A DNA stretch of 37,191 bases. Source: Saprospiraceae bacterium (GTDB taxonomy: Bacteria; Bacteroidota; Bacteroidia; Chitinophagales; Saprospiraceae). Below, piece after piece: positions 797 through 14,884 of this stretch. The stretch covers positions 1-37,191 of the forward strand of contig JANQQI010000044.1 in assembly GCA_028285085.1 (NCBI GenBank). Reading direction: 5' to 3'. A program made the position numbers and the translations under genes. The stretch's first letter is position 1. The number at the start of each line of letters is the position of its first letter. Below the pieces are notes generated by a model. That model saw only the letters and a program-made list of their open reading frames with translations. It made no database searches and was not told the origin of the DNA.

Positions 797-3508
797 GTGA
801 ATCCAAAATTTAATAAACACAACACATCCTATGAAGAGGCTCTGAAATCGCATACGTATGACGAAGCGATCAAGAATCTTCGCGACACGATCCTAAGTAT
901 TGGTGCAATAGACGATACGCTTGAACAAATCTATTGCCGACATCTGATAGCTCGCCTATACCTAATCAAGGGTAATTTCAAGAAAGCAAAGGCCATTGCC
1001 AAAGCAGCAATAGAATCGATAGAGCCGCTGCGAGATAACAACAAGTCCAAAACGCTATTTGAACTTACGCACAGTAATGTGCTCTCTATTTTAGGCGCCG
1101 CCTTCAATCAGGAAGGCAAATACTTCGAAGCGGCCCGCCAGTTAGAAACCGCCCGTAGAATAAAAGTCGCGGATAAAACACTTGTTTCAAAGGATCCTTT
1201 TATAATTGACGATCATTTGGAATTGGCGACCTCTTACAAAAATCAGGGAGATTTCGAACGCTCACTTAATTATTACAGCTTAGCCATTCATCTTTCTCGC
1301 TATCAAGGAGATACGAAAAGTTATCGAATTGCCCGAGCGCATAATGGGATCGGTTTAGTGAACTGGTTTTTGGGAGAATATGACTACTCAATGCAGTTTC
1401 TGCTACAGGCAAGAGAGCATTTTATAAACACTGGGACACATCGTAATTATCTTGCAGAAGTCTATAATGACCTTGGTATTTGGTACTGGAAACACGCGAA
1501 GGATGAATCGGGAGCTGCCAAAGCGCGAAATTTTAAACGAGCCGAACAGTTTCTCAAGCGCAGCATTTCCTTATTCACAAGGGCGTACAAAACGGACATA
1601 CATCCTCTGATCGCTACTTGTTATAACGATCTTGCAATGGTTAAAGAGGATAATAAGGATAAAAAAGCTGCTTTAAACAATTATATCATAGCCCTAAATA
1701 TTCGGAAACGTATTTACGGAAACCATCACCCAGAAATGGGGCGCAACCTCAATAATCTGGGGGTATATTTTAGAGACGAGCACCAAGAGCCCAATCGTGC
1801 GCTGAAGTTTTTCCAATCGGCAATGTTTTCCCTAGTTGATGGATTCAAGCATTTCGAATTAGACAAAAATCCCGATATCATTTTAGATAGCATCGATTCG
1901 ATTCGACATCTGCTTTATTCGTTAGAACATAAAACCAAAACCCTTTTCGACTTATTCGAAGCGCACGGTCAGATGGAAGATCTGGAACTGGCCTGCCATA
2001 CGGTCAACAAAGCCATTGAGTTAATTGATGAAACGCGCAATAAAATCCTAGAGGGTGAGCGCTCCAAATTGTTTTATAATACACGTGTTCGGTCCATTTT
2101 TGAGTTAGCGATCCAATGCTACAAGACTTACAATGACCAAGCAGATAAAGATACTTCATTTCCACGTGAACGCATCCTATCGTTTATTGAAAAAGGAAAG
2201 GCCTTCCTGTTGCTTGAGCAAATTCAGAATCGTCGCAATCGCCACCGTAGTCATTTGATCCAAAAAGCAGCGCAAGAAGAAGATACCATATCCAATAAAT
2301 CTGCTGACCTGGAAAGCGAAATGAGTAGTGCTGGGGATCCGCAAGAGCAACAAATCCTGCAAGAGTTTAAGCAAGATTTAAGCATTGAGGATTTGCAAAA
2401 AGAAATTGATGACAAGGCCCCACACGCAGCTTTACTCAATTTCTTTATGGGTAAACAGAAAGCGTATGTCCTGGTAGTTAAAAAGGAATCCTTCCATATC
2501 GTGGACCTTGCGGAAGGCAAGCTTCCTTGGGACATGGGCGCATTGCAAAAGGAGATCAAGCTATTTAAAGACAATTGGCAAGAAGATCTTGCTGGATTCG
2601 ACAAAGCACTTTACGTTGATTTAGCTCATCGGTTATACTTGCGATTAATCAAGCCCATCGAGTCGCTCATCGACGACATGAATCGCATCTACATTATGCC
2701 CCACGATGAGTTAGCCTACATCCCTTTTGAGGCTTTACTGACCGAATCAGCTACGGAGGATACGCCTTATTGGGAGATGTTTTATTGGCTGTATGACTAT
2801 CAAGTAATTAGCTACCATCACTCAGCTACTTTGCTATACGATACCCCTAGGAACGGTGCCAATCGACTCAAAAAATTCTATGCGGGCTTTGCGCCAGATA
2901 ATAACCAACTGCCGCAATCCGTGGAAGTCGTCCCTAAGATTTGCGAATTACTCAGGAATGAAGAACTGCTCGCCGAAAGCTTTCTACATGACCAAGCCAA
3001 GATTGATGATTTTTTCAAGGCGTTAAGGGAGTATACCGTTGTGCATCTATCAGCTCACAACAGCCAGGCGCACGATCCAGCCAATGTAGAAGCGGGAATA
3101 CAAATCCGCAACGAAAATGGAGATCTTGAATATTTGACGGTAGCCCAGCTTGAGGCGAATAAAGATAAGGCCGACAAAGACGCTATCAAATCAGGACTTG
3201 TCATTTTGGACAGCTGCAGCACCGGTGATGGTCAACTCATTTTGAGTGAAGGCTTGATTTCCTTCCACCGAGCTTTTTTGCTAAATGGTGCGAGCAACTT
3301 AATTTACACCTTATTTCCCGTGCCAGTCCTAGATTCCCGTGATTTAATGATTAGCTATTTTGAGCAGCTGATCAATCACAGGCACACCCGCCTAGTTGAA
3401 GCTCTTTGTGAGGCCAAAAAGGCTCTAATTGATAAGCAGTTAGAATTCATTGCGCCTAAATCGTGGGCGGGCTTTGTATATATGGGCAACCAACAAAGAA
3501 CGATTTAG
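797..3508 (+). CDS. TPR-CHAT caspase-like protease
   Basis: This is a 903-aa cytoplasmic protein with no signal peptide. The start is GTG at 797; the first internal ATG is more than 190 residues later, so a non-ATG start is needed. Residues ~50-350 hold about six tetratricopeptide repeats (for example LATSYKNQGDFERSLNYYS, NDLAMVKEDNKDKKAALNNY, NNLGVYFRDEHQEPNRALKF). Residues ~370-560 are helical and charged. Residues ~560-895 form a CHAT domain (clan CD, caspase/separase-like). Its PHDELAYIPFEAL segment and the catalytic dyad, H754 in VVHLSAHN and C807 in LVILDSCSTGDG, are all present, so it should be active. In known CHAT systems the TPR part senses or binds a partner and the protease cuts a specific substrate. 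The 3' end lies 10 bp from the convergent recombinase-like gene. The substrate is unknown. Confidence 0.88.
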   Translation: MNPKFNKHNTSYEEALKSHTYDEAIKNLRDTILSIGAIDDTLEQIYCRHLIARLYLIKGNFKKAKAIAKAAIESIEPLRDNNKSKTLFELTHSNVLSILGAAFNQEGKYFEAARQLETARRIKVADKTLVSKDPFIIDDHLELATSYKNQGDFERSLNYYSLAIHLSRYQGDTKSYRIARAHNGIGLVNWFLGEYDYSMQFLLQAREHFINTGTHRNYLAEVYNDLGIWYWKHAKDESGAAKARNFKRAEQFLKRSISLFTRAYKTDIHPLIATCYNDLAMVKEDNKDKKAALNNYIIALNIRKRIYGNHHPEMGRNLNNLGVYFRDEHQEPNRALKFFQSAMFSLVDGFKHFELDKNPDIILDSIDSIRHLLYSLEHKTKTLFDLFEAHGQMEDLELACHTVNKAIELIDETRNKILEGERSKLFYNTRVRSIFELAIQCYKTYNDQADKDTSFPRERILSFIEKGKAFLLLEQIQNRRNRHRSHLIQKAAQEEDTISNKSADLESEMSSAGDPQEQQILQEFKQDLSIEDLQKEIDDKAPHAALLNFFMGKQKAYVLVVKKESFHIVDLAEGKLPWDMGALQKEIKLFKDNWQEDLAGFDKALYVDLAHRLYLRLIKPIESLIDDMNRIYIMPHDELAYIPFEALLTESATEDTPYWEMFYWLYDYQVISYHHSATLLYDTPRNGANRLKKFYAGFAPDNNQLPQSVEVVPKICELLRNEELLAESFLHDQAKIDDFFKALREYTVVHLSAHNSQAHDPANVEAGIQIRNENGDLEYLTVAQLEANKDKADKDAIKSGLVILDSCSTGDGQLILSEGLISFHRAFLLNGASNLIYTLFPVPVLDSRDLMISYFEQLINHRHTRLVEALCEAKKALIDKQLEFIAPKSWAGFVYMGNQQRTI

Positions 3509-3518
3509 AATCGCGACA

Positions 3519-4601
3519 CTACGACGCATCCTTCTTACTCAAATTCGGCAATAAAATTTCTTTGTGAATGTAAAACTGGCACACGAAAGGACGATACCCT
3601 TTGGCAGTTATTCTTGCGAAATACATCCCAGGCATCAGAATATCCGATTGCTTCTGGTAATTTAAAACCAACTCCTCCTTCACATTAAGCGGACGAACTA
3701 ACTTGGGCGTTGTACTGTCGTTATGATAAATAGATAATTTTGCTTTTACATTTTCGGGGATTCCCTCTAACTTAACTTTCAGCTGACCATCCGTAAAATT
3801 TTTTCCTTTTGAAAGGCCCCTTACTTTCAATTGCTGAAAGGCCACGTTTTTGAGCGGTTGAAACATTCTTTCCAATGCCTCAGACATTTCTTCGCTTTCT
3901 AAAACCAATTTATTTTTCTTAATGGTTTGGTATTGTCGCATCACCCCCGTAGCATCAAATTGTTTACCGCGTCGGGTTAGTATATTTTGTTTATTGAGCT
4001 GATCAGCAATTTGACTCCAGTTTAGATCATCGACTTCTCGCAATTTTTGGATTGCTTTGCGTGCTTTGACATTGGCTTCATTGGTCAATGCCTTATAAGT
4101 CCGTCCCTGCTTAGCGGTATCCGTTGTTGCTTGCAGTTTTTCCGGACTAGCCGCGGCCAAACCAATTGGCTTATCGGAATTACGCAGTCCCTCACTGATC
4201 TTATTGCCTTGTTTCGTTCGCTCATAAACTAAATGATGGATCAACAAGTCAATACTTTTGTGATCCATCATCGAATAAGTTTTGTCATCGGAAAGCACGA
4301 AGTCGACAAAGCTGATCGTGACTTGTGCATCACGTAATAACGTCAGCACCTGCACATTTTTATGGAATCCTTCGTAAGTCCCCGCTACGATCATCATTGG
4401 ATCTTTTGGCGTGGCTTGCTCTTGAATAAGTTTGATGGCTTTTTGGCAAGCGGAGAAGAGAGAGCCGGGTAAATAGGCTCGAAAGGTTTCAACAACTTCA
4501 CCCGGAATTTGAGATGCCACTTCGCTGCGGAAGGTTTTCATCTGTCGGGCTACACTTTCTTTCGCTTTGGGAGTAATATTAAAAAGTAGTACCTGTCGCA
4601 T
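3519..4601 (-). CDS. Serine-recombinase-like protein lacking catalytic residues, with C-terminal beta domain
   Basis: The 360-aa protein begins at the first possible ATG, since a TGA directly precedes it in frame. Residues 1-150 follow the layout of a resolvase/invertase catalytic domain: a beta strand (VLLFNIT), a helix around ARQMKTFR, a second strand MIVAGTYEGFHKN where active enzymes have the DRLsRn motif, then LLRDAQVTISFVD and the well-kept YERTKQG of helix E. The nucleophilic serine (RxS) is replaced by N-I-T (T10), and the catalytic arginines of DRLSR by Y-E-G-F-H-K. Residues ~170-228 match the recombinase helical DNA-binding domain (IADQLNKQNILTRRGKQFDATGVMRQY, split here for length: IADQLNKQNIL + TRRGKQFDATGVMRQY). 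Residues ~265-350 form an unrelated beta-rich domain with PGMYFARI. I infer a domesticated, non-recombining DNA-binding regulator. It is divergent from the three envelope genes and convergent with the CHAT gene. Confidence 0.7.
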   Translation of the reverse strand: MRQVLLFNITPKAKESVARQMKTFRSEVASQIPGEVVETFRAYLPGSLFSACQKAIKLIQEQATPKDPMMIVAGTYEGFHKNVQVLTLLRDAQVTISFVDFVLSDDKTYSMMDHKSIDLLIHHLVYERTKQGNKISEGLRNSDKPIGLAAASPEKLQATTDTAKQGRTYKALTNEANVKARKAIQKLREVDDLNWSQIADQLNKQNILTRRGKQFDATGVMRQYQTIKKNKLVLESEEMSEALERMFQPLKNVAFQQLKVRGLSKGKNFTDGQLKVKLEGIPENVKAKLSIYHNDSTTPKLVRPLNVKEELVLNYQKQSDILMPGMYFARITAKGYRPFVCQFYIHKEILLPNLSKKDAS

Positions 4602-4780
4602 TCAGCAATTCAGTTTGATAAATATTAATGTCATTTGAGATTTGAGCGACACTTCGGGGAGGTGCCTGTTCTTGGGAATTAAACGTGGGGGACCCCGATT
4701 TTAGTTGCGTAAATATATAATTAATTTCAACATTAACAAAAATAGTCAAAAAAATGACAAGTGGGATAGATTGATGAATT

Positions 4781-4818
4781 ATTTTGCATTTTAATAGTTG
4801 TTTTTTAAAATGCAAAAT
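4781..4818. promoter_or_regulatory. Perfect 13-bp inverted repeat, candidate binding site in a divergent promoter region
   Basis: ATTTTGCATTTTA at 4781-4793 is exactly complementary to TAAAATGCAAAAT at 4806-4818, with a 12-nt spacer. It sits in the 274-bp region between the recombinase-like gene (minus) and the membrane protein gene (plus), 58 bp before the latter's ATG. It has no T-tract context as a terminator and no adjacent gene end. Its size and symmetry suit a dimeric binding site, and the neighbouring recombinase-like protein is the obvious candidate ligand. That link is inference. Confidence 0.5.
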
Positions 4819-4875
4819 CTTATTTTTACCTCGCTCTGCAATTGAAACATGAAGATTGATCTTTAATACCCTACA

Positions 4876-5436
4876 ATGAATAGCGAAAAAAAATCCCCTC
4901 GTTTGGATAATGCCATCAAAGCAGCATTGATTGGTGCTGCGGTTGCTATTATCGCCTTGATCGTCAATTCGGCTATTACCTTATTTATCCATTACGATCA
5001 AAAAGACACACCTCCATCAGAATCCACCCCTACGGTAGAAGATACCATCAAGCTAACAGATACCTTGACTGTTGTGGATACGATCACCGTTCCATTTCCA
5101 CCTACATCACCTGGAGAAGATGTCGATGAGGCACCTGACGCTAATATTGATAGCCCTACGCCCATCGCCATGAATATTTCAATCCCAAATCAATTTGTCA
5201 AAGGCACTTTACAAACCCAGGATATTACCATTACTGATACCGAAGGGCAGGATATTGATCCTAGCCCCATCTCCCGAATTCTATCCGGCCAGCAGTTGAA
5301 TCAACCTCATTTAGTAGGTCTCAAACTGCTTCCGGGACAATACACATTGACGCTTTCCGCACAGCCGTGTCGTTTTTCTTTCGAAGCCACTGCTGCTGCG
5401 AGTGAAGCGCCAGCGATCCCTTTTCAATGCCATTAA
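4876..5436 (+). CDS. Single-pass inner-membrane protein with extracytoplasmic beta domain
   Basis: This 186-aa protein is of unknown family. A short basic N-terminus (NSEKKSPRLDNAIK) precedes one hydrophobic helix at residues ~15-38 (AALIGAAVAIIALIVNSAI), so it is probably an N-in signal anchor. Residues ~43-95 are a Thr/Asp/Pro-rich linker with repeated DT units. Residues ~96-186 look like a small all-beta domain ending in LLPGQYTLTL...CRFSFEA, reminiscent of the C-terminal beta domain of the divergent recombinase-like protein. The ATG at 4876 follows an A-rich leader. The next gene begins only 11 bp after this stop, so the two are almost certainly co-transcribed. The role is unknown; topology suggests a link between the inner membrane and the periplasm. 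Confidence 0.6.
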   Translation: MNSEKKSPRLDNAIKAALIGAAVAIIALIVNSAITLFIHYDQKDTPPSESTPTVEDTIKLTDTLTVVDTITVPFPPTSPGEDVDEAPDANIDSPTPIAMNISIPNQFVKGTLQTQDITITDTEGQDIDPSPISRILSGQQLNQPHLVGLKLLPGQYTLTLSAQPCRFSFEATAAASEAPAIPFQCH

Positions 5437-5447
5437 AAATTAGACCA

Positions 5448-6665
5448 ATGAAGAAGCTTTACCTGTTACTGAGTTTGATGACCCTCTGCTACCTGACGAC
5501 CAGCGCCCAAGTTCACTGGAACGATCTGAAACTGTACATTCCTGAATTTCGAATTGAGCCACAGGAACTAGCACAAATTGCCGATGCCACGAAGGCCGGT
5601 GAAAGCTATGTGAACAACCGCTTGGCGGTCGGGCAACGCTATTTCGTTCGGTACGCGAAGCAACAATTCGATGGAACATTTATGATTGGTACACGCAACA
5701 GTCGTTATCAAGTCTTGTATGAATGCTGTGACAAAGGACAGGCTTGTTGCCAACAACCTACGGGCTTGGATATCAACGCCTTTGTCAGTATTAGCACGTC
5801 CTACAACTCCGCCAGTCGTGAGATTTCCTTCTTTGCGGAAATCATCAACTTTAAATTTGAGCACCTGGCGGGCCCAGCCGAACAAACGATCACTATTGAT
5901 GGCATCAAAAACAATAATCTGATTAATCATACTATGCAAGAGCTGGCCAAAGAGCTGTTCCGAGATGCCCCTAAACCTAAAGCAAAAAGCCACCCGACTC
6001 CACGACAAATCACGCCTTACTGGAGAAAGTTCGGTGAGTATGTCGTAACGAAACGAGAGCTAGAACAGGCTGAATCCCGATCCAAAGCTTGTGATCTGGT
6101 CAATAGAGCCTTTGCGCTATATGAAACCATTCGTGATATGCCTGGCCAGGAGCTGACGCAAGAAGAAATTCAGCACCGCCGCCAGATATTTTATGAAGAC
6201 CCGAACGAGCTAAGGTTTATCAAGCATTTGACCGAACTGGTACATACATGTGATCCCTCACACTGGAAACGCGACGAAGGACGTGCCAATAATTTTAACC
6301 AACGCGTCCGAAATTTTAATGACCAGGTCCACCAATTAAATGCCGAAGGTCTGCAACTCCCTCAGAGTCCGCATCATGATCTCTATCTGAACCACTTAGA
6401 GGAAGTAATTGATAAGGGTATCGAGCTGGGAGATGAATTAGCCCGAATTGAACAACAACGTGGTACCAGCTCAACTGACATTGAGAAGAAGTTGCGACAA
6501 TTCCAGAGCACCTTGCGTGTCATCATTACCAACGCCATTTCGCTCCGCGATCAATACTTTAATGAAGATATCATTAGCCAGATTCAGAAAAGTCGCTATG
6601 ACCAGGTCATTAATGACTGTTATACTCGACTACAGCAATTTTCCAGAAGACACAGTATGCCCTAA
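5448..6665 (+). CDS. Exported protein of unknown function, beta N-half and helical C-half
   Basis: The frame opens at 5427, but the ATG at 5448 directly begins a good signal peptide (MKKLYLLLSLMTLCYLTTSAQ), so I place the start there (405 aa). The mature N-terminal half (to ~residue 170) alternates beta strands and helices (DLKLYIPEFRI, YFVRYAKQQ, AFVSISTSY, LAKELF). This is loosely like CsgG/LpoB-type periplasmic domains, a weak resemblance only. It contains a cysteine cluster, ECCDKGQACCQQ. The C-terminal half (~residues 190-400) is helical and charged, possibly coiled coil. It is the middle gene of the three-gene envelope operon, 11 bp after the preceding stop and 47 bp before the OmpA-like gene. 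I do not recognise a family. Confidence 0.6.
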   Translation: MKKLYLLLSLMTLCYLTTSAQVHWNDLKLYIPEFRIEPQELAQIADATKAGESYVNNRLAVGQRYFVRYAKQQFDGTFMIGTRNSRYQVLYECCDKGQACCQQPTGLDINAFVSISTSYNSASREISFFAEIINFKFEHLAGPAEQTITIDGIKNNNLINHTMQELAKELFRDAPKPKAKSHPTPRQITPYWRKFGEYVVTKRELEQAESRSKACDLVNRAFALYETIRDMPGQELTQEEIQHRRQIFYEDPNELRFIKHLTELVHTCDPSHWKRDEGRANNFNQRVRNFNDQVHQLNAEGLQLPQSPHHDLYLNHLEEVIDKGIELGDELARIEQQRGTSSTDIEKKLRQFQSTLRVIITNAISLRDQYFNEDIISQIQKSRYDQVINDCYTRLQQFSRRHSMP

Positions 6666-6712
6666 GTTGATTTTCAATTTTTAACCAAACAATATTTTCA
6701 AACCCATCAAGC

Positions 6713-8005
6713 ATGAACCGCCCAATAATCTATTTGCTGCTACTGGCATTCATTAGCCTGGGAGCTTCTAAATGCCGTCAAGAAAAAAAATTATTCAAAC
6801 AAATAAAAGGTGCCCAACATATCGTGATCAAGCACCTGACGATTGACACCCTCGTCACAGATTACGAGGTACAAGGCATCCTTACCTTAGACGTGCTCGA
6901 CTTGGAGATGCTGTCTTTGCGCCTTTCTACCAATGGTCAGCGCCTGACACTTGGACCTGATCAATTTGAGCTATCAGCGGATGGCAAAGCCTTTTACCTT
7001 GACAGTCTGCACGTATCCCGTCAAGTGGAGGGGGCGCCGAATCGGCCAATGCCTTTTAGCGCCGTTCAGATTGGTCGAACCCAACTTAATAATATTGCGG
7101 CTTCCATTCGTAATAAGAAAGGAAAGCAGGTGCGACGATTGAATTTCTCATCTTCTGAAGGTAAATCTATTACGGTTTTGCAAACAACCGTACATGGTGC
7201 AATTGGTGAACAACCTTACGGATTTGACAATATTCGGGACAAATATCGCGAGGAAATGACTGACGATATTGCCGCCGGGAATGCACAAATCGAAAGACTC
7301 CGCCTGGAGATTAATCGAAAAATTGAGAAAGATCAAGACCACCCTATTGGCGAGGCCATAATACCCATTGAAAATTATGCCGCTGACTTAAGTGGACTAC
7401 TCGATTTTGTTAACAACATTGACGAATATACTCCACTGGAATTGATCCAGGCTAAAGCTTATGATTTAGGAGAAATTCTAGAGAGTCTCAACGAGATCGC
7501 TGAAGATGTTTATCGCGAAGACAACATCTACAATTTGGCTAGCGATCTCTTCTTCAAGCCGGGAAAATGGGATATCACCAACGCTGCGGATTTGAACGGG
7601 GTATGTGATCATATTAAAGATATGCTCACACAGTTGGAATTAAATGATGATGTTGTTGGTCGAAAACTCATCATCAATGTCGTTGGCTACGCCGATGAGC
7701 AGGGTTTTTTCAACGAAACAATCCGGTCAATTTGTACCGCCAAAGGACTAACTGTCGTCAACAACCCCATCCTGGTTGCGCAGCGAAAAGCGTTTAACCA
7801 AGCGCTTTCGGAATTACGGGCAGAAGCGGTAGAGGTTTATCTCAACAATCGCTTAAGCATGATGGGGTTATCCAATGCATTACCCATTGAAATCAGTACG
7901 AAAGGACGGGGAGAAACTTTACCGCCTAACATCATCCCTAAATCAACTGCGGATGATCAAGAGCGGCGACGTGTCATGGTTTATGTACAACCAATGAGTG
8001 AGTAA
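6713..8005 (+). CDS. Exported protein with C-terminal OmpA-like peptidoglycan-binding domain
   Basis: The 430-aa protein starts with a signal sequence (MNRPIIYLLLLAFISLGASKC). The C21 context, A-S-K-C, is a poor lipobox because of Lys at -1, so lipidation is uncertain. Residues ~25-160 look like two strand-rich units. Residues ~170-270 are helical. Residues ~281-428 fit an OmpA/MotB C-terminal domain: KLIINVVGYADEQ (the GHTD-like strand and loop), the helix AQRKAFNQALSELRAEAVEV, KGRGETLPP and the closing ERRRVMVYV. Such domains hold outer-membrane or periplasmic proteins to the cell wall. It is the last gene of the operon that begins at 4876 and is followed by a strong terminator at 8126-8155. 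An insertion lengthens the loop after the GYADE strand compared with typical OmpA domains. Confidence 0.72.
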   Translation: MNRPIIYLLLLAFISLGASKCRQEKKLFKQIKGAQHIVIKHLTIDTLVTDYEVQGILTLDVLDLEMLSLRLSTNGQRLTLGPDQFELSADGKAFYLDSLHVSRQVEGAPNRPMPFSAVQIGRTQLNNIAASIRNKKGKQVRRLNFSSSEGKSITVLQTTVHGAIGEQPYGFDNIRDKYREEMTDDIAAGNAQIERLRLEINRKIEKDQDHPIGEAIIPIENYAADLSGLLDFVNNIDEYTPLELIQAKAYDLGEILESLNEIAEDVYREDNIYNLASDLFFKPGKWDITNAADLNGVCDHIKDMLTQLELNDDVVGRKLIINVVGYADEQGFFNETIRSICTAKGLTVVNNPILVAQRKAFNQALSELRAEAVEVYLNNRLSMMGLSNALPIEISTKGRGETLPPNIIPKSTADDQERRRVMVYVQPMSE

Positions 8006-8125: not shown

Positions 8126-8155
8126 TGCCCGGTTTCAAGCCGGGCACACTTTTTT
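8126..8155 (+). terminator. Intrinsic terminator after the envelope operon
   Basis: A perfect 7-bp G/C-rich stem TGCCCGG / CCGGGCA with a 7-nt loop is followed after three bases by a run of six T. It lies 120 bp after the OmpA-like stop and marks the end of the 4876-8005 operon. Confidence 0.8.
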
Positions 8156-8161
8156 AGCTTA

Positions 8162-8321
8162 GAGCTTGTTTAAAATGCCATTAATTAACTACAAGTGTCA
8201 AATTTAATTCTGTATTTCGTTAAAAAGCCTCGCCGATGCTTTGGCATCGCCTACGTTTTTTTGCCTTATTTAGAATTAAATTTTCTCACTTTCGCCTAAT
8301 CATGAAAGTTTGAACAAGCTC
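8162..8321. mobile_element. Symmetric MITE-like palindromic element, no ORF
   Basis: The ends GAGCTTGTTTAAA (8162-8174) and TTTGAACAAGCTC (8309-8321) are inverted repeats differing at one base. Flanking bases 8159-8161 and 8322-8324 are both TTA (part of a longer CTTAG match), like a 3-bp target duplication of TNA type. An inner inverted pair AATTTAATTC / GAATTAAATT lies at 8201-8210 and 8273-8282. A perfect CGATGC-TTTG-GCATCG hairpin sits at 8234-8249. All three pairs share the same centre (8241.5), so the whole 160 bp can fold as one cruciform or RNA hairpin. It carries no protein. It may be a non-autonomous element mobilised in trans and may also act as a terminator between the flanking genes. 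No second copy lies in this window. Confidence 0.6.
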
Positions 8322-8413
8322 TTAGTTTGTAATAAATATCCGCTGCACCAGTTAATGGCACAAGCGGATACAAAAAGGATAACCCTTTCTCTAAAGAACT
8401 GTTACAAACTTCA

Positions 8414-11400
8414 TTAACGGAACAACACTTTCCCACTGTACATCTCACCGTCGATACCAATTACCTTAAGGATATAAGTGCCCGCAGGCCATCCGCCCCG
8501 CTGCAATTGGTATTGGCGTTGATTCAGACGATGGTTATAATATACGAGTTGCCCATTCAAGTCGTACAAACTAATGGCGACCATTTCCGTCAATCGCTTA
8601 TTGATCGTAATATTGGTATATGCACCCGCCGGATTGGGCAGAACACGCAATTGCCCAAGGGAGCGATATTCAGGCCGCTCACCGATAATATTCTGTACGG
8701 TGTTCGTATAAATGGGATCTTGTTGATCAAAATAAATCGCCACTTGATTCTCCAGAATGGTTCCATCAGGTAAATCATCTTGGATACGCACTTTGAAGAG
8801 GATAAAACCATGACTTTCCGGCTCCGCAGTGGTACTATCTGGCAAGTTAATATTCTCAAATAACCAAGTAATATGGCCGTCATCCTTGACAATTAGTTGA
8901 TACGGGTGGCTCACTACACCCATTTCGAGTGAAGCTGGGTCGAGGCCTTCGGGTAATTGATCTTCGATGCGCACGGTGGATACCAAAGCATTTCCAACAT
9001 TTTGGAAGCGAATTTTGTAGGTCAATTCCGTGCCTGCCTCAACAAAACCTTCAGGGTCAACCGCCAAGTCATTCGGGTCAATGGCGCCTTCGGCGAGCAA
9101 TGATCGTGCAGCGGTGTTATCGGCAGTATTACAATCCAGTTCACTACCATTCAGGGTACCATTAACATCCATATACGATCCAATTGTGACCGAAGTAGCG
9201 ACAGAGTCAGTAATGTAAATCGTTTTCCGCTCTCCCATATCCAAGGTTGCAAACGTCCACTTGTAGGTTGTTCCCTGCACATCATCCCAAGGGGTTGTAC
9301 TCGATACTGGCAAAATATCATTACCTAAATCCAAGCTCAATTGTACCCCAGAAGCCCGACTGGTTCCAGCATTTGATACCGTCACAGCAATTAAATTTTC
9401 GAAGCCAACACGCTGAGCAGTTGACTCAATTTCCAGTCTTAAATCCGGATAAACACAAGTCGCTGTATCCCCAAAATTATTATCACAATATTGCTGTCCC
9501 ATGCTCAAGACATCTACGGAAAGGGTATCCTCACAACTGTTATTCCAGTTGGTCCCTGCTTGGTGAATCAGGTCGTAAGTCCCCAGTGCTAAGCGTGTCG
9601 TATAATATCCCGTGGAATCCGTCAAGACTAAGCGATTACCGGGTTGCACAATGACTTTGGCATTAGACAGAACTGCCTCACCTTCATCTTTTATACAATT
9701 ATTATTTTCATCGTGATACACATAACCACAAACCTCTGCCCCAGCATCTTCAGTCAGAGCAAGGCAGGATGCCGTGGATGACGTATCTGTTAGCACCTGC
9801 TGATAACCTGAAGGCCACTCGATGACAACTGAATCGGCTTGAGCAGCATCTCCCAATCCAAAGCGAATGCGCATATCATTCTGACTACCTAGTCCGCCAC
9901 CGGTCTGACTACTTACCTCCTGCATTTGCCAAACACTCTCACCGTAAATCGTAGCTTTTACACGTACCTTGGCACCAATCGCAGAAGCATTTGAATTCGA
10001 GCCCGTGAGATTCAAACAGAGTTGATTCTGGCAACGACCACGACTATTCTTGTACATAAAGTCCACATTGCTATCGTGGTTGGTGGCATATAAATCCAGG
10101 TCGCCGTCATTATCGATATCAGCCCAGGCAGCCCCCTTTGATTCTCCGCCATCCTGACTCAGCGCATTAGATACACGTACAAAGCTGCCATCCCCTTGGT
10201 TAGAATAGAGGAAGTTATTTTGATTTTGATTATTCGTAACAAAAAGATCCAGATCACCATCATTATCATAGTCCGCCCAGCTACTCCCGTGGCTATGCCC
10301 ACCATCGGAGACCACAACACCCGAAGTAATACGAGTGAAGTTGTCATTACCATCATTGCGATAGAGGAAGTTATTCTGGTTACCAGAATTAGCCACGAAT
10401 AAATCTAAATCACCATCATTATCGTAATCGCCCCAGCTTGCACCGACAGAATTCCCCCCATCACTCACAATATCTCCAGTGGTGATTTCGGTGAACTCAC
10501 CGTTACCTTCATTACGGTAGAGACTATTGTGGTTACCTTCGGTGTTAGCTACAAATAAATCTGCCAAACCATCACCATTATAATCCCCCCAAGCCCCACT
10601 GACTGAAAAAGAAGCTTCACCAACAACGGCATTACCACTTACTTCAGTAAAAGTGCCATCGCCATTATTGTGATAAAGTTTATTAAATTCGGTTGAAAAG
10701 TACTGGGCCGTAAAGAGGTCCAGATAGCCATCGTTATCATAATCGATAAAGGCCACACCGTGTGTATATCCCTGATCGGTAGTCACGGGGTCTCCCATCA
10801 CACGGACGAAGGTACCATCTCCGTTATTGCGATAAAGGAAGTTATCTTGTTCTATGTTGTTTGCGACGAATAAATCGAGATCACCATCGTTGTCATAATC
10901 TCCCCAACTCGCAGCCGTAGAAATCCCCACATCGGTAGCGATAGCTCCTGTGTTTACTTGCGTAAAGGTGCCATCACCATCATTGTGATAGAGTCGGTTG
11001 GGTTGATTCTCATTATAAACCGTCACGAAAGCATCTACCCAACCATCATTATCATAATCCCCCCAACTGATTCCACGTGAATCCACCGAGGCATCTAACC
11101 CGATATTGTACACTCGACCGAATACGGCGCTAGGGTCAAAAGCTACAGAAATGGACGGTAGTGCATCACCACAAGCACGATCAGAACGCAAATTGAAATA
11201 GACAAATTCACCTGCCTTAAAATTCTCATCGAGCACTAGGTTGAACTTGACTTTCAACAAATTCGCGGTCACATCCGTAATTCCAATCAAACCATCTTGG
11301 CCGATTGTTGTATTCATATCCGTACCCGTAATAGTGTAGGTATCACCGACCAAGCTAGGATCAGCAATCACGGAGTAGCTGCCGCTCTCCGGATAAAGAA

Positions 11401-14400
11401 CTTCCGCACTCCCCGCCTGAATTGTGATCGTTTGGGTGCCAGGCATCACGGCATCCAATTCAATATTTTTCACCGCTCCAATCTTCGCACTCAGCAACTC
11501 CAATTCAACACCCAAAATATTTTCACATTCCTGGCCAGATTCCAAATAGTTGATACGTACTTGAAGTTCTGATTCCTGTGGAGCAATTTCTAAATCATAC
11601 GTATTGTAACCACAGGTAAAACTCCCCAAGTCCGTCGGGTAGCCATCACAGCTATATCCCGAACGAACGCTAATTACGGAATTATTACAATTATCATAAT
11701 CAACGGTCAAAGTATAATCCGCAGAGCCGTTACCAGCAATATCTCCGATTTGATAAAATCCATCAACAGGATGAATCGTATCACCACTTGAATTCACAAG
11801 GCTCAGTACGGTAATCGAATTATCTGCACTATAAAAATTCAACCAACCATTATCTGCAGGTGTACCACTTGTATTGGATACACTAATCGGCCAACTTACG
11901 GTTGGAGAAATCCCCTCCTGCATCTGATCAGCGGTGCTCACCTCAAGGCTAGCTGGTTGATAGCGCAGATAATCAGCCGTGGTTGTATACTCATCTGTTT
12001 CCTGCCCGCCTAAAACGCTACTTTCTAAAAAGGTGTAGTACCAGGGCATTGGTAGATTTGCAACCGGATTAACATCACAAGCCGGATCAACAATAACTTT
12101 TACAGTTCCTTTAAATCCATCATCACTTGGATTAATGGTACCACCGTTCGAGGTATAGTATTGCGAAAGATCGAATATTACTGTTTGTCCATTAATTGAT
12201 AAAGGCGTAATACTAGTCGATTCGGTCACCGAGGAATTCGTTCGTTTAGTACGCTTTTGTTCCATGGTTGCTGATACATAAGTGTAGCCATCCGGGATTT
12301 CAACACGTAGGTCTTGAACGGTAGCCCAATTACGATATTCATAAGGGAACATATCTCCACCGTGGTAGTTATTGCAACATTTACCAACACTCAAGAAGAA
12401 ATTCTGAGCGATTGTTTTGGTACAATCATTCACATTGTATTGCTGTGAATTACGGTTACGAAAGAAGTAGCCCACCATGGTAATATTACCATTCCAGGTA
12501 TCACACTGAAAAGCCGTGCCGTTGGCCGTATTGCTGACATAGAAATCATTAGTGATCGTTTGCTGCTCTACGTTACCTCCAATATTCCCGCTTAGCTGAT
12601 AGTCAGCCATCAAAATCACACTATCTCCTTCCTCAAAACTCCAGTCACTGAAATCCGAACAGCCATTAGCGAGCAAAGTACCTGGGCTAAAATCAAAATC
12701 GGCAGTAAGTACATTGCTACTCACGGAGGTAGATGCGGATACACCACTACATACAAAGGTCTGTCCTGTACTTTGGTCGTAAATACGTACACTTGCACTC
12801 AGGAAAGTTAAATCATTACCATTTGGAATTTCCGATTTGGCGTAACCGTAAGACCAAGAAGGGTAGGTCGCAGAGGTTTTGATCAGACCTGTAAAGGTCG
12901 TACGAAACGTATCGCTCGCCATGATCCGGTTCAGTTTGATTTTATCTGTATCAAGGCTACCACTTGCATCGGGTAAGCCATCTTGATTATTGTCAGGTAA
13001 ACCAGTGCTGGTGCGCTGAGCAGTAAAAGATCGAAAAGCCATCCCGTGCTCACAATCCCCAGGGCAATGTAAATAAGTAGTTGGTGACTGATAACAGGTG
13101 AGTGGTAGCTCATAAGGTGAACTACAGGTATTATCCATGATATAAAATAACTGCATGCCTACCGTTGCGACACCATCAGCGACTCCGGTATCATTGCAAT
13201 CCAACGTCAAGTTCAAATCAATATAAGCACGTTCCAAAGTAATGGGAACGGGTAAGGCATAAAGTGCCGTCAATACTCGAGTAGAAGTATTGTAATTAAT
13301 TTGCTCAGCGGCCCAAGATGATCCACCATCAGTAAAGACTAAATCTGCTGCATTACCACTCCAGGGTAAACCAGCGGGCAAATCAAATTGGAGTTTAAAA
13401 TAAGAATCCGAAGTTTCTGGCAGGTCAAAATCTGCATTCTGTAATAGGAAATGATAGGTCCCCGTCTGACCATCGGTCAGATCAGAAGGTGACTCAAAGA
13501 AAATATCAAAGTCTTTATCTTGTCGTTCTTGACCGGTACCATTTTTATCATAACTTTTCTGGTAACACATGTCGGTATAATCGGTCTCATACTTCCACCC
13601 AATTAAATTAAAATCACCACAAGCATCCGTCGCACAAGTGTAGGAATTCCAACTTAGGGTAGCGGTCTCTCCGGGTTGCAAGGCTGGTAAAGTAACTGTA
13701 AAACTTCCCTTTGGATTACTTCCCAAACAAGTATAGCTACTGGCACTAGTGGTAGCAGTAGGTGTCAAGGTAGACGTCCAGCTCGTTTGCGTCAAGGTAA
13801 TATTGTCGGTATCAATTCGGGAATACACATCCGATGGGTTTTGATACACATAAACTTCTAAATCATTCGCCGGCCCGGAGCCATTGTTGGTGATGACCAG
13901 GCTTTGTACATCTGCAGAACCGTCAACGCACGTATTGAAATTAGCTTGAGGGGTGATGCTTAATGATGGGGCATACAGGGTAACATCGGTATCGGGATAT
14001 TTTTTATTGCTACTTTCTGTTCCACCATCACAGCCCCAGTAGGCCGTCAGGGTGGATTCGGTACTATTACAACCGACCGCCGTCAAAGTCTGCGTCACCG
14101 TAATCGCCTCATTTTTCTCAAACCAACCATCACCATCACCGATCGTGGTAAAATCAGCCGACGAAAAGGTAATCTGATCGGCACTGCCGTTGAGTGTTCC
14201 CAAGTCGACTGCATCGAGTGTAAGGTTAGCATCATAGATGTCTTCCAGAACCATTGATGATAAGGCGCCGAAACCTGCATTAACGATCGTCACCTCCCGG
14301 GTGAATGTTTCTCCAACGAAGACCGAAGCGTTGGTTGGAGAGACATTAGTAATCGTCAAAGCTGCGTAGAGTACATTATAGGAATCGGTTTCATCTATAT

Positions 14401-14884
14401 CCAACCCACCAGAGTAATCTACTTCAACATCGTTCCGAAATAAATTACCGGCCAAATTGTAGGCCAGCGCTGGAAACGAGGCTTCGGCTTGAAAGGTAAA
14501 AGATACTGTGCCCGAAGCCGGTAGATCATTCATGCTAAATTGTATGTCCGATAAATCACTGATATTGGCTTCTTGAACATTAAAGCTACTCGTCTCGGCG
14601 ATGGTTCCACTGATATATTGAATACCTGTTGGCATCGCTACATTAATCGTCATACCGCTTAAAGTACCGCCACTAATATTAGTAAATTCAATAGTAAAGG
14701 TGCCAGGATCTCCACAAATAGTTAGCTCAGAGGGGACGCCATTATTAAATCCCACGGATTGGGCACGGCTGGTGTTGCTAAGGAGGATAAGGGCAAGCGT
14801 AATCAAAAACATCAGCCAATCGGGCATGGCTGGTCGCTCGTAGGCAGAGTCCTGCCTACGGCTTTCGTGTAGTTGTGTATTCAT
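8414..14884 (-). CDS. Giant T9SS-exported protein with DUF11-like domains, FG-GAP repeats and ASPIC/UnbV domain
   Basis: 2156 aa. The signal peptide core is LMFLITLALILLSNTSRAQ. Either the ATG at 14884 or the one at 14827 (codon 20) may be the true start; the latter gives a more usual length. Residues ~45-1240 are serial beta-sandwich modules with phrases such as SVGETFTREVTIVNAG and PGETATLSW, typical of DUF11/CARDB-like stalk domains. Residues ~1265-1615 hold seven FG-GAP/VCBS repeats (WGDYDNDGDLDLFVAN type) with DxDNDG calcium-binding loops. Residues ~1630-1700 fit UnbV/ASPIC (GAKVRVKA...QTGGGLGSQNDMRIRFGLG). Residues ~1715-1780 are SdrD-B/CNA-B-like (GYVYHDENNNCIKDEGE). Another DUF11-like region ends near 2060. 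Residues ~2075-2156 are the T9SS sorting domain (VLPNPAGAYTNITI, WPAGTYILKV). It is exported through Sec then T9SS to the cell surface. The function is probably adhesion or surface structure; no catalytic domain is seen. Confidence 0.88.
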   Translation of the reverse strand: MNTQLHESRRQDSAYERPAMPDWLMFLITLALILLSNTSRAQSVGFNNGVPSELTICGDPGTFTIEFTNISGGTLSGMTINVAMPTGIQYISGTIAETSSFNVQEANISDLSDIQFSMNDLPASGTVSFTFQAEASFPALAYNLAGNLFRNDVEVDYSGGLDIDETDSYNVLYAALTITNVSPTNASVFVGETFTREVTIVNAGFGALSSMVLEDIYDANLTLDAVDLGTLNGSADQITFSSADFTTIGDGDGWFEKNEAITVTQTLTAVGCNSTESTLTAYWGCDGGTESSNKKYPDTDVTLYAPSLSITPQANFNTCVDGSADVQSLVITNNGSGPANDLEVYVYQNPSDVYSRIDTDNITLTQTSWTSTLTPTATTSASSYTCLGSNPKGSFTVTLPALQPGETATLSWNSYTCATDACGDFNLIGWKYETDYTDMCYQKSYDKNGTGQERQDKDFDIFFESPSDLTDGQTGTYHFLLQNADFDLPETSDSYFKLQFDLPAGLPWSGNAADLVFTDGGSSWAAEQINYNTSTRVLTALYALPVPITLERAYIDLNLTLDCNDTGVADGVATVGMQLFYIMDNTCSSPYELPLTCYQSPTTYLHCPGDCEHGMAFRSFTAQRTSTGLPDNNQDGLPDASGSLDTDKIKLNRIMASDTFRTTFTGLIKTSATYPSWSYGYAKSEIPNGNDLTFLSASVRIYDQSTGQTFVCSGVSASTSVSSNVLTADFDFSPGTLLANGCSDFSDWSFEEGDSVILMADYQLSGNIGGNVEQQTITNDFYVSNTANGTAFQCDTWNGNITMVGYFFRNRNSQQYNVNDCTKTIAQNFFLSVGKCCNNYHGGDMFPYEYRNWATVQDLRVEIPDGYTYVSATMEQKRTKRTNSSVTESTSITPLSINGQTVIFDLSQYYTSNGGTINPSDDGFKGTVKVIVDPACDVNPVANLPMPWYYTFLESSVLGGQETDEYTTTADYLRYQPASLEVSTADQMQEGISPTVSWPISVSNTSGTPADNGWLNFYSADNSITVLSLVNSSGDTIHPVDGFYQIGDIAGNGSADYTLTVDYDNCNNSVISVRSGYSCDGYPTDLGSFTCGYNTYDLEIAPQESELQVRINYLESGQECENILGVELELLSAKIGAVKNIELDAVMPGTQTITIQAGSAEVLYPESGSYSVIADPSLVGDTYTITGTDMNTTIGQDGLIGITDVTANLLKVKFNLVLDENFKAGEFVYFNLRSDRACGDALPSISVAFDPSAVFGRVYNIGLDASVDSRGISWGDYDNDGWVDAFVTVYNENQPNRLYHNDGDGTFTQVNTGAIATDVGISTAASWGDYDNDGDLDLFVANNIEQDNFLYRNNGDGTFVRVMGDPVTTDQGYTHGVAFIDYDNDGYLDLFTAQYFSTEFNKLYHNNGDGTFTEVSGNAVVGEASFSVSGAWGDYNGDGLADLFVANTEGNHNSLYRNEGNGEFTEITTGDIVSDGGNSVGASWGDYDNDGDLDLFVANSGNQNNFLYRNDGNDNFTRITSGVVVSDGGHSHGSSWADYDNDGDLDLFVTNNQNQNNFLYSNQGDGSFVRVSNALSQDGGESKGAAWADIDNDGDLDLYATNHDSNVDFMYKNSRGRCQNQLCLNLTGSNSNASAIGAKVRVKATIYGESVWQMQEVSSQTGGGLGSQNDMRIRFGLGDAAQADSVVIEWPSGYQQVLTDTSSTASCLALTEDAGAEVCGYVYHDENNNCIKDEGEAVLSNAKVIVQPGNRLVLTDSTGYYTTRLALGTYDLIHQAGTNWNNSCEDTLSVDVLSMGQQYCDNNFGDTATCVYPDLRLEIESTAQRVGFENLIAVTVSNAGTSRASGVQLSLDLGNDILPVSSTTPWDDVQGTTYKWTFATLDMGERKTIYITDSVATSVTIGSYMDVNGTLNGSELDCNTADNTAARSLLAEGAIDPNDLAVDPEGFVEAGTELTYKIRFQNVGNALVSTVRIEDQLPEGLDPASLEMGVVSHPYQLIVKDDGHITWLFENINLPDSTTAEPESHGFILFKVRIQDDLPDGTILENQVAIYFDQQDPIYTNTVQNIIGERPEYRSLGQLRVLPNPAGAYTNITINKRLTEMVAISLYDLNGQLVYYNHRLNQRQYQLQRGGWPAGTYILKVIGIDGEMYSGKVLFR
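10045..11085 (-). repeat. Tandem FG-GAP coding repeats, seven units
   Basis: The core (I/A/S)xWxDYDNDGxxDLF recurs seven times at a period of roughly 53 codons (~160 nt), each followed by a FLYRNDGDGxFxRV-type strand. On the plus strand this shows as repeated AT-rich blocks ending in cgtcattatc-like words. The units form blades of one beta propeller with Ca-binding DxDxDG loops. The DNA similarity is caused by coding constraint and duplication inside the gene; it is not a CRISPR array. Confidence 0.85.
14839..14860 (-). repeat. Perfect 9-bp hairpin at the 5' end of the giant T9SS gene
   Basis: CGTAGGCAG (14839-14847) and CTGCCTACG (14852-14860) are exact complements around a 4-nt loop. The hairpin lies between the two candidate ATGs (14884 and 14827) and ends 11 nt before the inner one. 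This supports the inner ATG as the real start, with the hairpin in the mRNA leader, where it could affect mRNA stability or translation. It could also be a small dispersed repeat. Confidence 0.55.

Follow-up and report, generated by a model that had tools for sequence, protein, structure and literature searches.

CHAT-domain proteases are abundant, and to our knowledge only the CRISPR-linked one has a known substrate. In type III-E CRISPR systems, as the available part of one report describes, the tetratricopeptide repeat (TPR)-CHAT protein Csx29 cleaves Csx30, an inhibitor of the extracytoplasmic function (ECF)-like sigma factor CASP-σ (PMC10028731), and CHAT substrates are, according to the accessible text of another, commonly encoded near the protease (PMC9729208). 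Transcription control also borders on other members of the caspase superfamily: the available sections of a paper describe EACC2-caspase loci with an ECF sigma factor and a TPR gene, and ECF sigma genes adjoining other caspase systems (PMC8195603). Enzymes recruited from mobile elements have been reviewed, with DNA invertases, and not dead regulators, named in the text available (PMC8987985). Here we analyse a locus from a Saprospiraceae bacterium in which a gene for a cytoplasmic TPR-CHAT protease meets, end to end, a gene for a regulator derived from a serine recombinase. It lies in a stretch of 37,191 bases (the window), which is an entire contig (C89) of a 7.47-Mb genome. We find that the two genes recur as a pair and that the regulator ends in a domain common to the partners of ECF sigma factors. 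These features suggest an undescribed protease-controlled gene switch in some Bacteroidota. The reading we develop, to which we give about an even chance, is a two-gene regulatory module in which CHAT controls the recombinase-derived regulator through its C-terminal domain; the membrane gene next to them is probably a third member.

An initial annotation had joined five genes of the window (CHAT protease, inactive serine-recombinase-like protein and three envelope genes) into one cassette. All five open reading frames are present (Table 1), but they cannot share one transcription unit, because the regulator gene is convergent with the CHAT gene (10-bp gap) and divergent from the run 4876–8005. 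Among 150 genomes of the family, the recombinase-like protein has four relatives, of which one is a conventional serine recombinase. Profiles derived from these relatives, which represent the recombinase-like protein only and are blind to CHAT, were searched over 396 genomes of the order, 398 of the family and 395 of the class (overlapping sets; below, L-numbers denote fetched loci, G-numbers genomes, C-numbers contigs and f12 one family of the order). They returned 14 genes that unite the recombinase-like part with the C-terminal domain, all within the order. A CHAT gene is the convergent 3′ neighbour in 11 of the 13 readable genes, at gaps of −56 to +51 bp, so the condition that would have refuted the initial annotation, homologues of the five genes mostly apart from each other, does not hold for this pair (L095, whose 3′ flank runs only 32 bases to the contig end, was left out). 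By comparison, a CHAT gene occurs in the fetched stretch of none of 34 serine recombinases that lack the domain (Fisher 4.5e-9 for 11 of 13 versus 0 of 34); 25 of these controls have flanks that each reach at least 3 kb, and 26 carry a YxRVS-type motif in their first 40 residues. Two short helix-turn-helix (HTH)-only pieces (L110, L112) were left out of the controls, as were, from the counts, five matches to the C-terminal domain alone (L105, L107, L108, L178 and L204), of which at least L107, L108 and L178 start like exported proteins. The members L173–L177 came to light last, once the pattern was known, and served as a held-out set; all are paired with CHAT (5/5).

Pairwise distances among ten pairs are correlated between CHAT and regulator (r 0.82; 3 of 20,000 permutations as high), and more weakly once near relatives are taken out (r 0.60; as high in 134 of 5,040 permutations). 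The two genes have therefore diverged together, to which common genome descent may contribute. The latter bears on the explanation that these are simply inherited neighbours without a functional link, which we regard as highly improbable. Members are sparse, none of the three further genomes in the window's genus having a full-length match, and species descent could explain part of the co-divergence; against this, abutting convergent genes recur across the order's families at 15–25% identity, no such pairs stand beside serine recombinases without the domain (0 of 34), and the CHAT dyad and positions of the regulator's domain are kept. In genome G106, the recombinase-like gene at L030 5413–6784 has no CHAT gene and its relative L173 is paired; loss of CHAT is likely there.

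The TPR-CHAT assignment of the initial annotation is borne out. The CHAT domain (PF12770; 118.3 bits, E 5.7e-34, cut-off 24) spans residues 608–898 (bases 2618–3490), with TPRs ahead of it at about residues 44–346. Just seven positions are the same in all 11 CHATs of the pairs; they include His754 and Cys807, kept in 11 of 11, which we take from the CHAT motif to be the catalytic pair. The paired CHATs are clustered on the CHAT tree (3 changes of label versus 8.6 under shuffling, with none of 500 shuffles as low). A single clade for all pairs, which we considered, was recovered in 4% of bootstraps on long branches and was dropped. The structure model of the protease (mean pLDDT 41.4) was not usable, and a profile search of solved structures with CHAT returned TPR proteins and one stray match only.

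The partner had been called an inactive serine-recombinase-like protein. The inactivity is supported by the family: aligned over 13 full-length members, the resolvase DR motif is gone (Asp77 kept in none, Arg78 in none), Arg8 is kept in one, and the Ser10 column shows an aligned Ser in six, in a poorly aligned stretch. To judge by this alignment, the recombinase active site is lost across the regulator family. The kinship is less evident in the window protein taken alone, which matches PF07508 below the cut-off (residues 191–220, 14.7 bits against 21.1); four of 13 scanned members pass it (L173, 25.8; L096, 24.5; L030, 28.6; L031, 21.4 bits). The positions that are kept include Ile198 (12 of 13) and Arg222 (12) of the HTH region and Gly325 (13) of the C-terminal domain, and the structure model reaches pLDDT 70–89 at residues 181–230. 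A Foldseek search with this model had no match as good as E 0.001; resolvase structures were absent from its list, a weak test as the β domain filled the list. Profile searches of solved structures with the regulator or with the ECF partner gave no useful match.

A recombinase front also invites the explanation that CHAT is an immune protease switched on by the dead recombinase, which would sense DNA that is foreign or recombining, like gRAMP–crRNA in Craspase, with the membrane protein as target or exit. Serine recombinase DNA-binding parts recognize mobile-element sites, families of phage integrases and invertases are matched by five of six scanned members (the window protein is the non-match), and the paired TPR-CHAT architecture is that of Csx29. 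We nevertheless consider this quite unlikely, as none of the five genes is a known defence gene by PADLOC (no convincing family, only a stray Cas9 match at E 0.002) and the C-terminal domain speaks rather for sigma-factor partners. The Pfam and PADLOC matches of the five genes include no gasdermin family.

The domain that ends the regulator links it to a large family of loci in the order that carry an ECF sigma factor, a partner protein and a CHAT gene (L100, L103, L219–L238 and, in the window's own genome, L016–L027). Regulator and ECF-partner domains align with an HHalign probability of 99.0% (E 7.6e-18), the window domain scores 22.2 bits, and a partner profile made without the regulator family recovers two regulator genes (G212, G256). 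The initial annotation had tied the CHAT gene to its cassette; it belongs instead to a group of 16 CHAT matches in its genome, and at least nine of the 15 others lie near an ECF-sigma-like gene and a partner (L020 adds one by gene clusters). In Pfam, two examples of the ECF label are above the cut-off and a third, in L016, is unmatched. The partner profile is matched in some part by 20 of 20 f12 genomes searched. Partners come in two forms with similar N-termini (HHalign 98.0%), ending either in a membrane segment and a TPR-like tail or in the β domain, and a CHAT gene lies no more than five genes away in 15 of 24 β-domain and 14 of 27 membrane-type loci (loci picked by partner type). L024 and L016 (hydropathy 2.1 and 2.6) fall in neither class, and L233 yielded no partner gene. 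At L101 8279–12990, an ECF gene and a β-domain partner stand head to head with a 1,081-residue protein whose CHAT-like match, close to the N-terminus, is only weak.

The two partner forms differ in where their CHAT is predicted to reside. An export-signal-like N-terminus is found on CHAT in 13 of 14 membrane-type loci versus none of 14 readable β-domain loci (Fisher 7.5e-7), and within f12 alone in 6 of 7 versus 0 of 14 (Fisher 1.3e-4). This pattern suggests that CHAT shares a compartment with the C-terminal part of its partner. The window type agrees: all ten paired CHATs with a visible N-terminus are not exported, and we saw no signal peptide in the regulator. The export count leaves out L227, whose N-terminus is cut by the stretch edge, and L177, whose open reading frame starts about 50 residues inside the gene (hydropathy 2.3) and which is also left out of the 5′-flank counts; L102 and L111 are left out of the export and orientation counts for ECF loci. 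CHAT is the partner's 3′ neighbour in 15 of 48 ECF loci, convergent in ten of these 15, so the recombinase-like gene appears to occupy a frequent place of the ECF partner: same end, different front.

The β-sandwich resembles the sorting domains of the type IX secretion system (T9SS), and in the window (3561–3839) as in L100 (3415–4080) it ends proteins without export signals. Possibly, then, a T9SS-sorting-domain-like module is the handle by which these Bacteroidota CHATs read their regulators, one that moved between an anti-sigma factor and a dead serine recombinase in different lineages at the same place in the locus; we put this forward tentatively. The T9SS trims its own sorting domains by the caspase-related protease PorU, and a protease-and-handle pair may therefore have shifted from secretion to signalling. 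If this is true, the regulator would be the first case of a transcription factor of recombinase origin under the control of a caspase-like protease.

The two-part architecture, an HTH region joined to a C-terminal domain, would also suit a toxin–antitoxin-like arrangement: CHAT would be an effector, toxic or causing cell death, and its DNA-binding inhibitor would be the dead recombinase, with one half for DNA and the other for the toxin. Strict pairing, the kept dyad and co-divergence fit this as well. The genes are convergent and form no operon, however, and the ECF-partner loci with the same domain look regulatory rather than neutralizing. L030 and L031 lack CHAT, but a lone inhibitor-like gene would be harmless, so neither decides. 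On balance, inhibition of a toxic protease seems rather unlikely.

Table 1 Features of the CHAT–regulator locus and its surroundings in the window
Feature	Position	Strand	Length and basis
TPR-CHAT cysteine protease, cytoplasmic	797–3508	+	903 residues; PF12770, no signal peptide, N-terminal hydropathy 1.1
Recombinase-derived regulator, made up of an N-terminal region (degenerate, resolvase-like), a Recombinase/HTH region and a C-terminal β-sandwich	3519–4601	−	360 residues; family alignment, catalytic-motif loss, CHAT neighbour
Immunoglobulin-like C-terminal β-sandwich of the regulator, common to ECF-sigma partner proteins, resembling T9SS sorting domains	3561–3839	−	residues 255–347
Recombinase/HTH region of the regulator, probable DNA-binding part	3912–4079	−	residues 175–230; sub-threshold PF07508, pLDDT
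Candidate operator, between the divergent regulator and membrane genes		4781–4818			14-bp perfect inverted repeat, 10-bp spacer; inferred
Single-pass membrane protein, divergent from regulator	4876–5436	+	186 residues; hydrophobic segment 16–34; counterpart, by position, of the small membrane genes beside other regulators
Protein whose N-terminus is signal-peptide-like, in the same direction as 4876–5436	5427–6665	+	412 residues; local to this genome
Exported protein, weak OmpA-like C-terminus, rare	6713–8005	+	430 residues; PF00691 18.7 bits, cut-off 27.2
Intrinsic-terminator-like hairpin after envelope genes	8126–8146	+	9-pair stem, then CACTTTTTTA
MITE-like repeat (miniature inverted-repeat transposable element), boundary feature outside module	8155–8330		24-nt imperfect terminal inverted repeats

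On the other side of the regulator lies a gene for a membrane protein, whose single hydrophobic segment agrees with the initial annotation. It has no detected sequence relatives in 149 other genomes of the family. Its position recurs: a small membrane protein adjoins the 5′ side of the regulator in nine of ten pairs, divergently in eight, compared with 2 of 32 controls, when the first gene of at least 100 residues 5′ of the regulator is counted if it has one or two hydrophobic segments (control L210 has no gene to count). Most of these proteins carry coiled coils, and they have little sequence in common (weak matches L032–L174 and L099–L176); the one in L096 looks rather exported, and that of L173, the nearest paired relative, carries a murein-binding SPOR domain (36.8 bits). 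In the tenth pair (L175), a transposase-like gene, recognized by eye, takes the position at 6604–7530. At L174 4540–7852 the membrane gene is followed by co-directional genes, including one for an M48-family peptidase; this is another run of envelope type adjoining a pair.

The gap between the divergent regulator and membrane genes contains a palindrome that, from its sequence, looks like a site for a dimer. Of 400 dinucleotide shuffles of 4602–4875, one produced an arm at least 14 long, which makes a chance origin unlikely, and the palindrome has no other copy in the genome at up to three mismatches. A regulon based on it was considered and abandoned, given the single copy and a half-site near CHAT within chance.

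The two genes further downstream look local. In the 150 family genomes, a search for relatives of 5427–6665 returned only itself, and 6713–8005 has one relative in 149 other genomes (G136), on an 11.6-kb contig without a CHAT or recombinase-like gene. The OmpA-like assignment of 6713–8005 is weak, its C-terminal PF00691 match being under the cut-off; an NLxxR-type motif was read by eye. The cassette thus survives as the conserved CHAT–recombinase pair and a membrane gene that recurs by position, and the near-absence of envelope-gene relatives in the genomes sampled led us to reject all five as a conserved unit. It also tells against the initial annotation's idea of a trans-envelope relay for which the secreted and OmpA-like proteins are essential, which we hold to be very unlikely. 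Speaking for that relay are the operon-like run 4876–8005 with a terminator-like site at its end, the L173 membrane protein with its SPOR domain in the same position (the window having an OmpA-like protein), and the further genes, with an M48 peptidase, co-directional with the membrane gene in L174.

The terminator and the MITE-like element reported beyond these genes are both there. The repeat has further copies in the genome, two near-full at 92–93% identity (C82, C49) and one short and partial (C15), unlinked to the pair, and we rejected terminator and repeat as proof of a mobile cassette. An exported 2,156-residue protein with FG-GAP repeats, an ASPIC/UnbV domain and a T9SS sorting domain follows at 8414–14884. 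At the other border, the gene at 2–433, read by eye as rpsA (ribosomal protein S1), is truncated by the contig end, the window being the whole contig. Scanning the window for Rfam families and tRNAs gave no hits.

In our reading the regulator is made from a dead serine recombinase that lost its active site, kept the Recombinase/HTH region and gained an immunoglobulin-like C-terminal domain, the part on which, we propose, CHAT would act. A regulator dimer may occupy the 38-bp palindrome, controlling the divergent membrane and envelope genes as well as its own gene. The TPR region or the membrane protein may sense an envelope or infection signal, upon which CHAT would cleave or strip the regulator at its C-terminal domain and so switch the target genes. 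What the analysis shows is the recurring pair with the His–Cys dyad kept and the recombinase active site lost, the C-terminal domain held in common, the agreement of compartments and the recurrent membrane gene. We infer that the regulator binds DNA and that CHAT cleaves it, as well as the signal and which way the switch works; action through the C-terminal domain is suggested by analogy with that of Csx29 on Csx30.

Several observations weigh against this module. Convergent genes are not co-transcribed, and pairing alone is no demonstration of cleavage. L030 and L031 have no adjoining CHAT gene. At the regulator's N-terminus, strands alternate with helices in the model at a pLDDT of about 35–60, too low to confirm a resolvase fold; the C-terminal domains of L098, L099 and L176 are unscored by the ECF-partner profile (at most 3.2 bits). 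No palindrome of the window's kind occurs in the regulator–membrane gap of six of seven other pairs examined, and TTAAAATGTTAAAAT at 710–724, 5′ of the CHAT gene, resembles a half-site of 4781–4818 at a level within chance (0.30 expected). The membrane-gene criterion was fixed after seeing the pairs, and the hydropathy cut-off for export (2.0) was chosen after seeing some data.

Should the proposed control by CHAT hold, caspase-like transcription control would be wider than Craspase, recombinases would have become regulators through loss of catalysis, and many Bacteroidota ECF/CHAT loci would gain a testable rule, protease and handle in one compartment. For a CHAT protease that is not part of CRISPR, the module offers a specific candidate partner, a specific domain on that partner and a specific DNA site.

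The initial annotation knew of no described system of this kind, and the literature we found, in a search confined to open-licence papers, indeed holds no description of the conserved CHAT–recombinase pair; nor did we find, in the literature searched, papers on the ECF/partner/CHAT loci. The latter share with the window the C-terminal β domain (in f12) and a cytoplasmic CHAT, often at the partner's 3′ end; their partner has a short helical anti-sigma-like front and an adjacent ECF gene, whereas the front here is a recombinase. Like the EACC2-caspase loci, the window combines a caspase-superfamily protease and transcription control in one neighbourhood; those loci have other protease-fused components, and the available text mentions no recombinase (PMC8195603). 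The regulator's N-terminal and Recombinase/HTH regions descend, by sequence, from serine recombinases (resolvases, invertases and large integrases), from which the family differs in its lost catalytic motifs, its added C-terminal domain and its fixed CHAT neighbour. That domain has the fold of, and distant sequence similarity to, T9SS sorting domains (Por_Secre_tail) and DUF3244, but here it closes proteins that lack export signals, and in sequence it resembles the ECF-partner domains more than the sorting domains. Craspase/CASP, as far as the available parts of the reports describe it, likewise has a cytoplasmic TPR-CHAT protease gene beside a gene for a transcription-control protein (PMC10028731, PMC9729208). 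The five genes here include no Cas7-11 (gRAMP), csx30 or sigma gene by Pfam, NCBIfam and PADLOC, the remaining contig not having been scanned for cas genes, and no sigma family is matched among them in Pfam or NCBIfam; the partner is a dead serine recombinase and not an anti-sigma factor. We therefore file the CHAT–dead-recombinase pair as a new variant of protease-controlled transcription.

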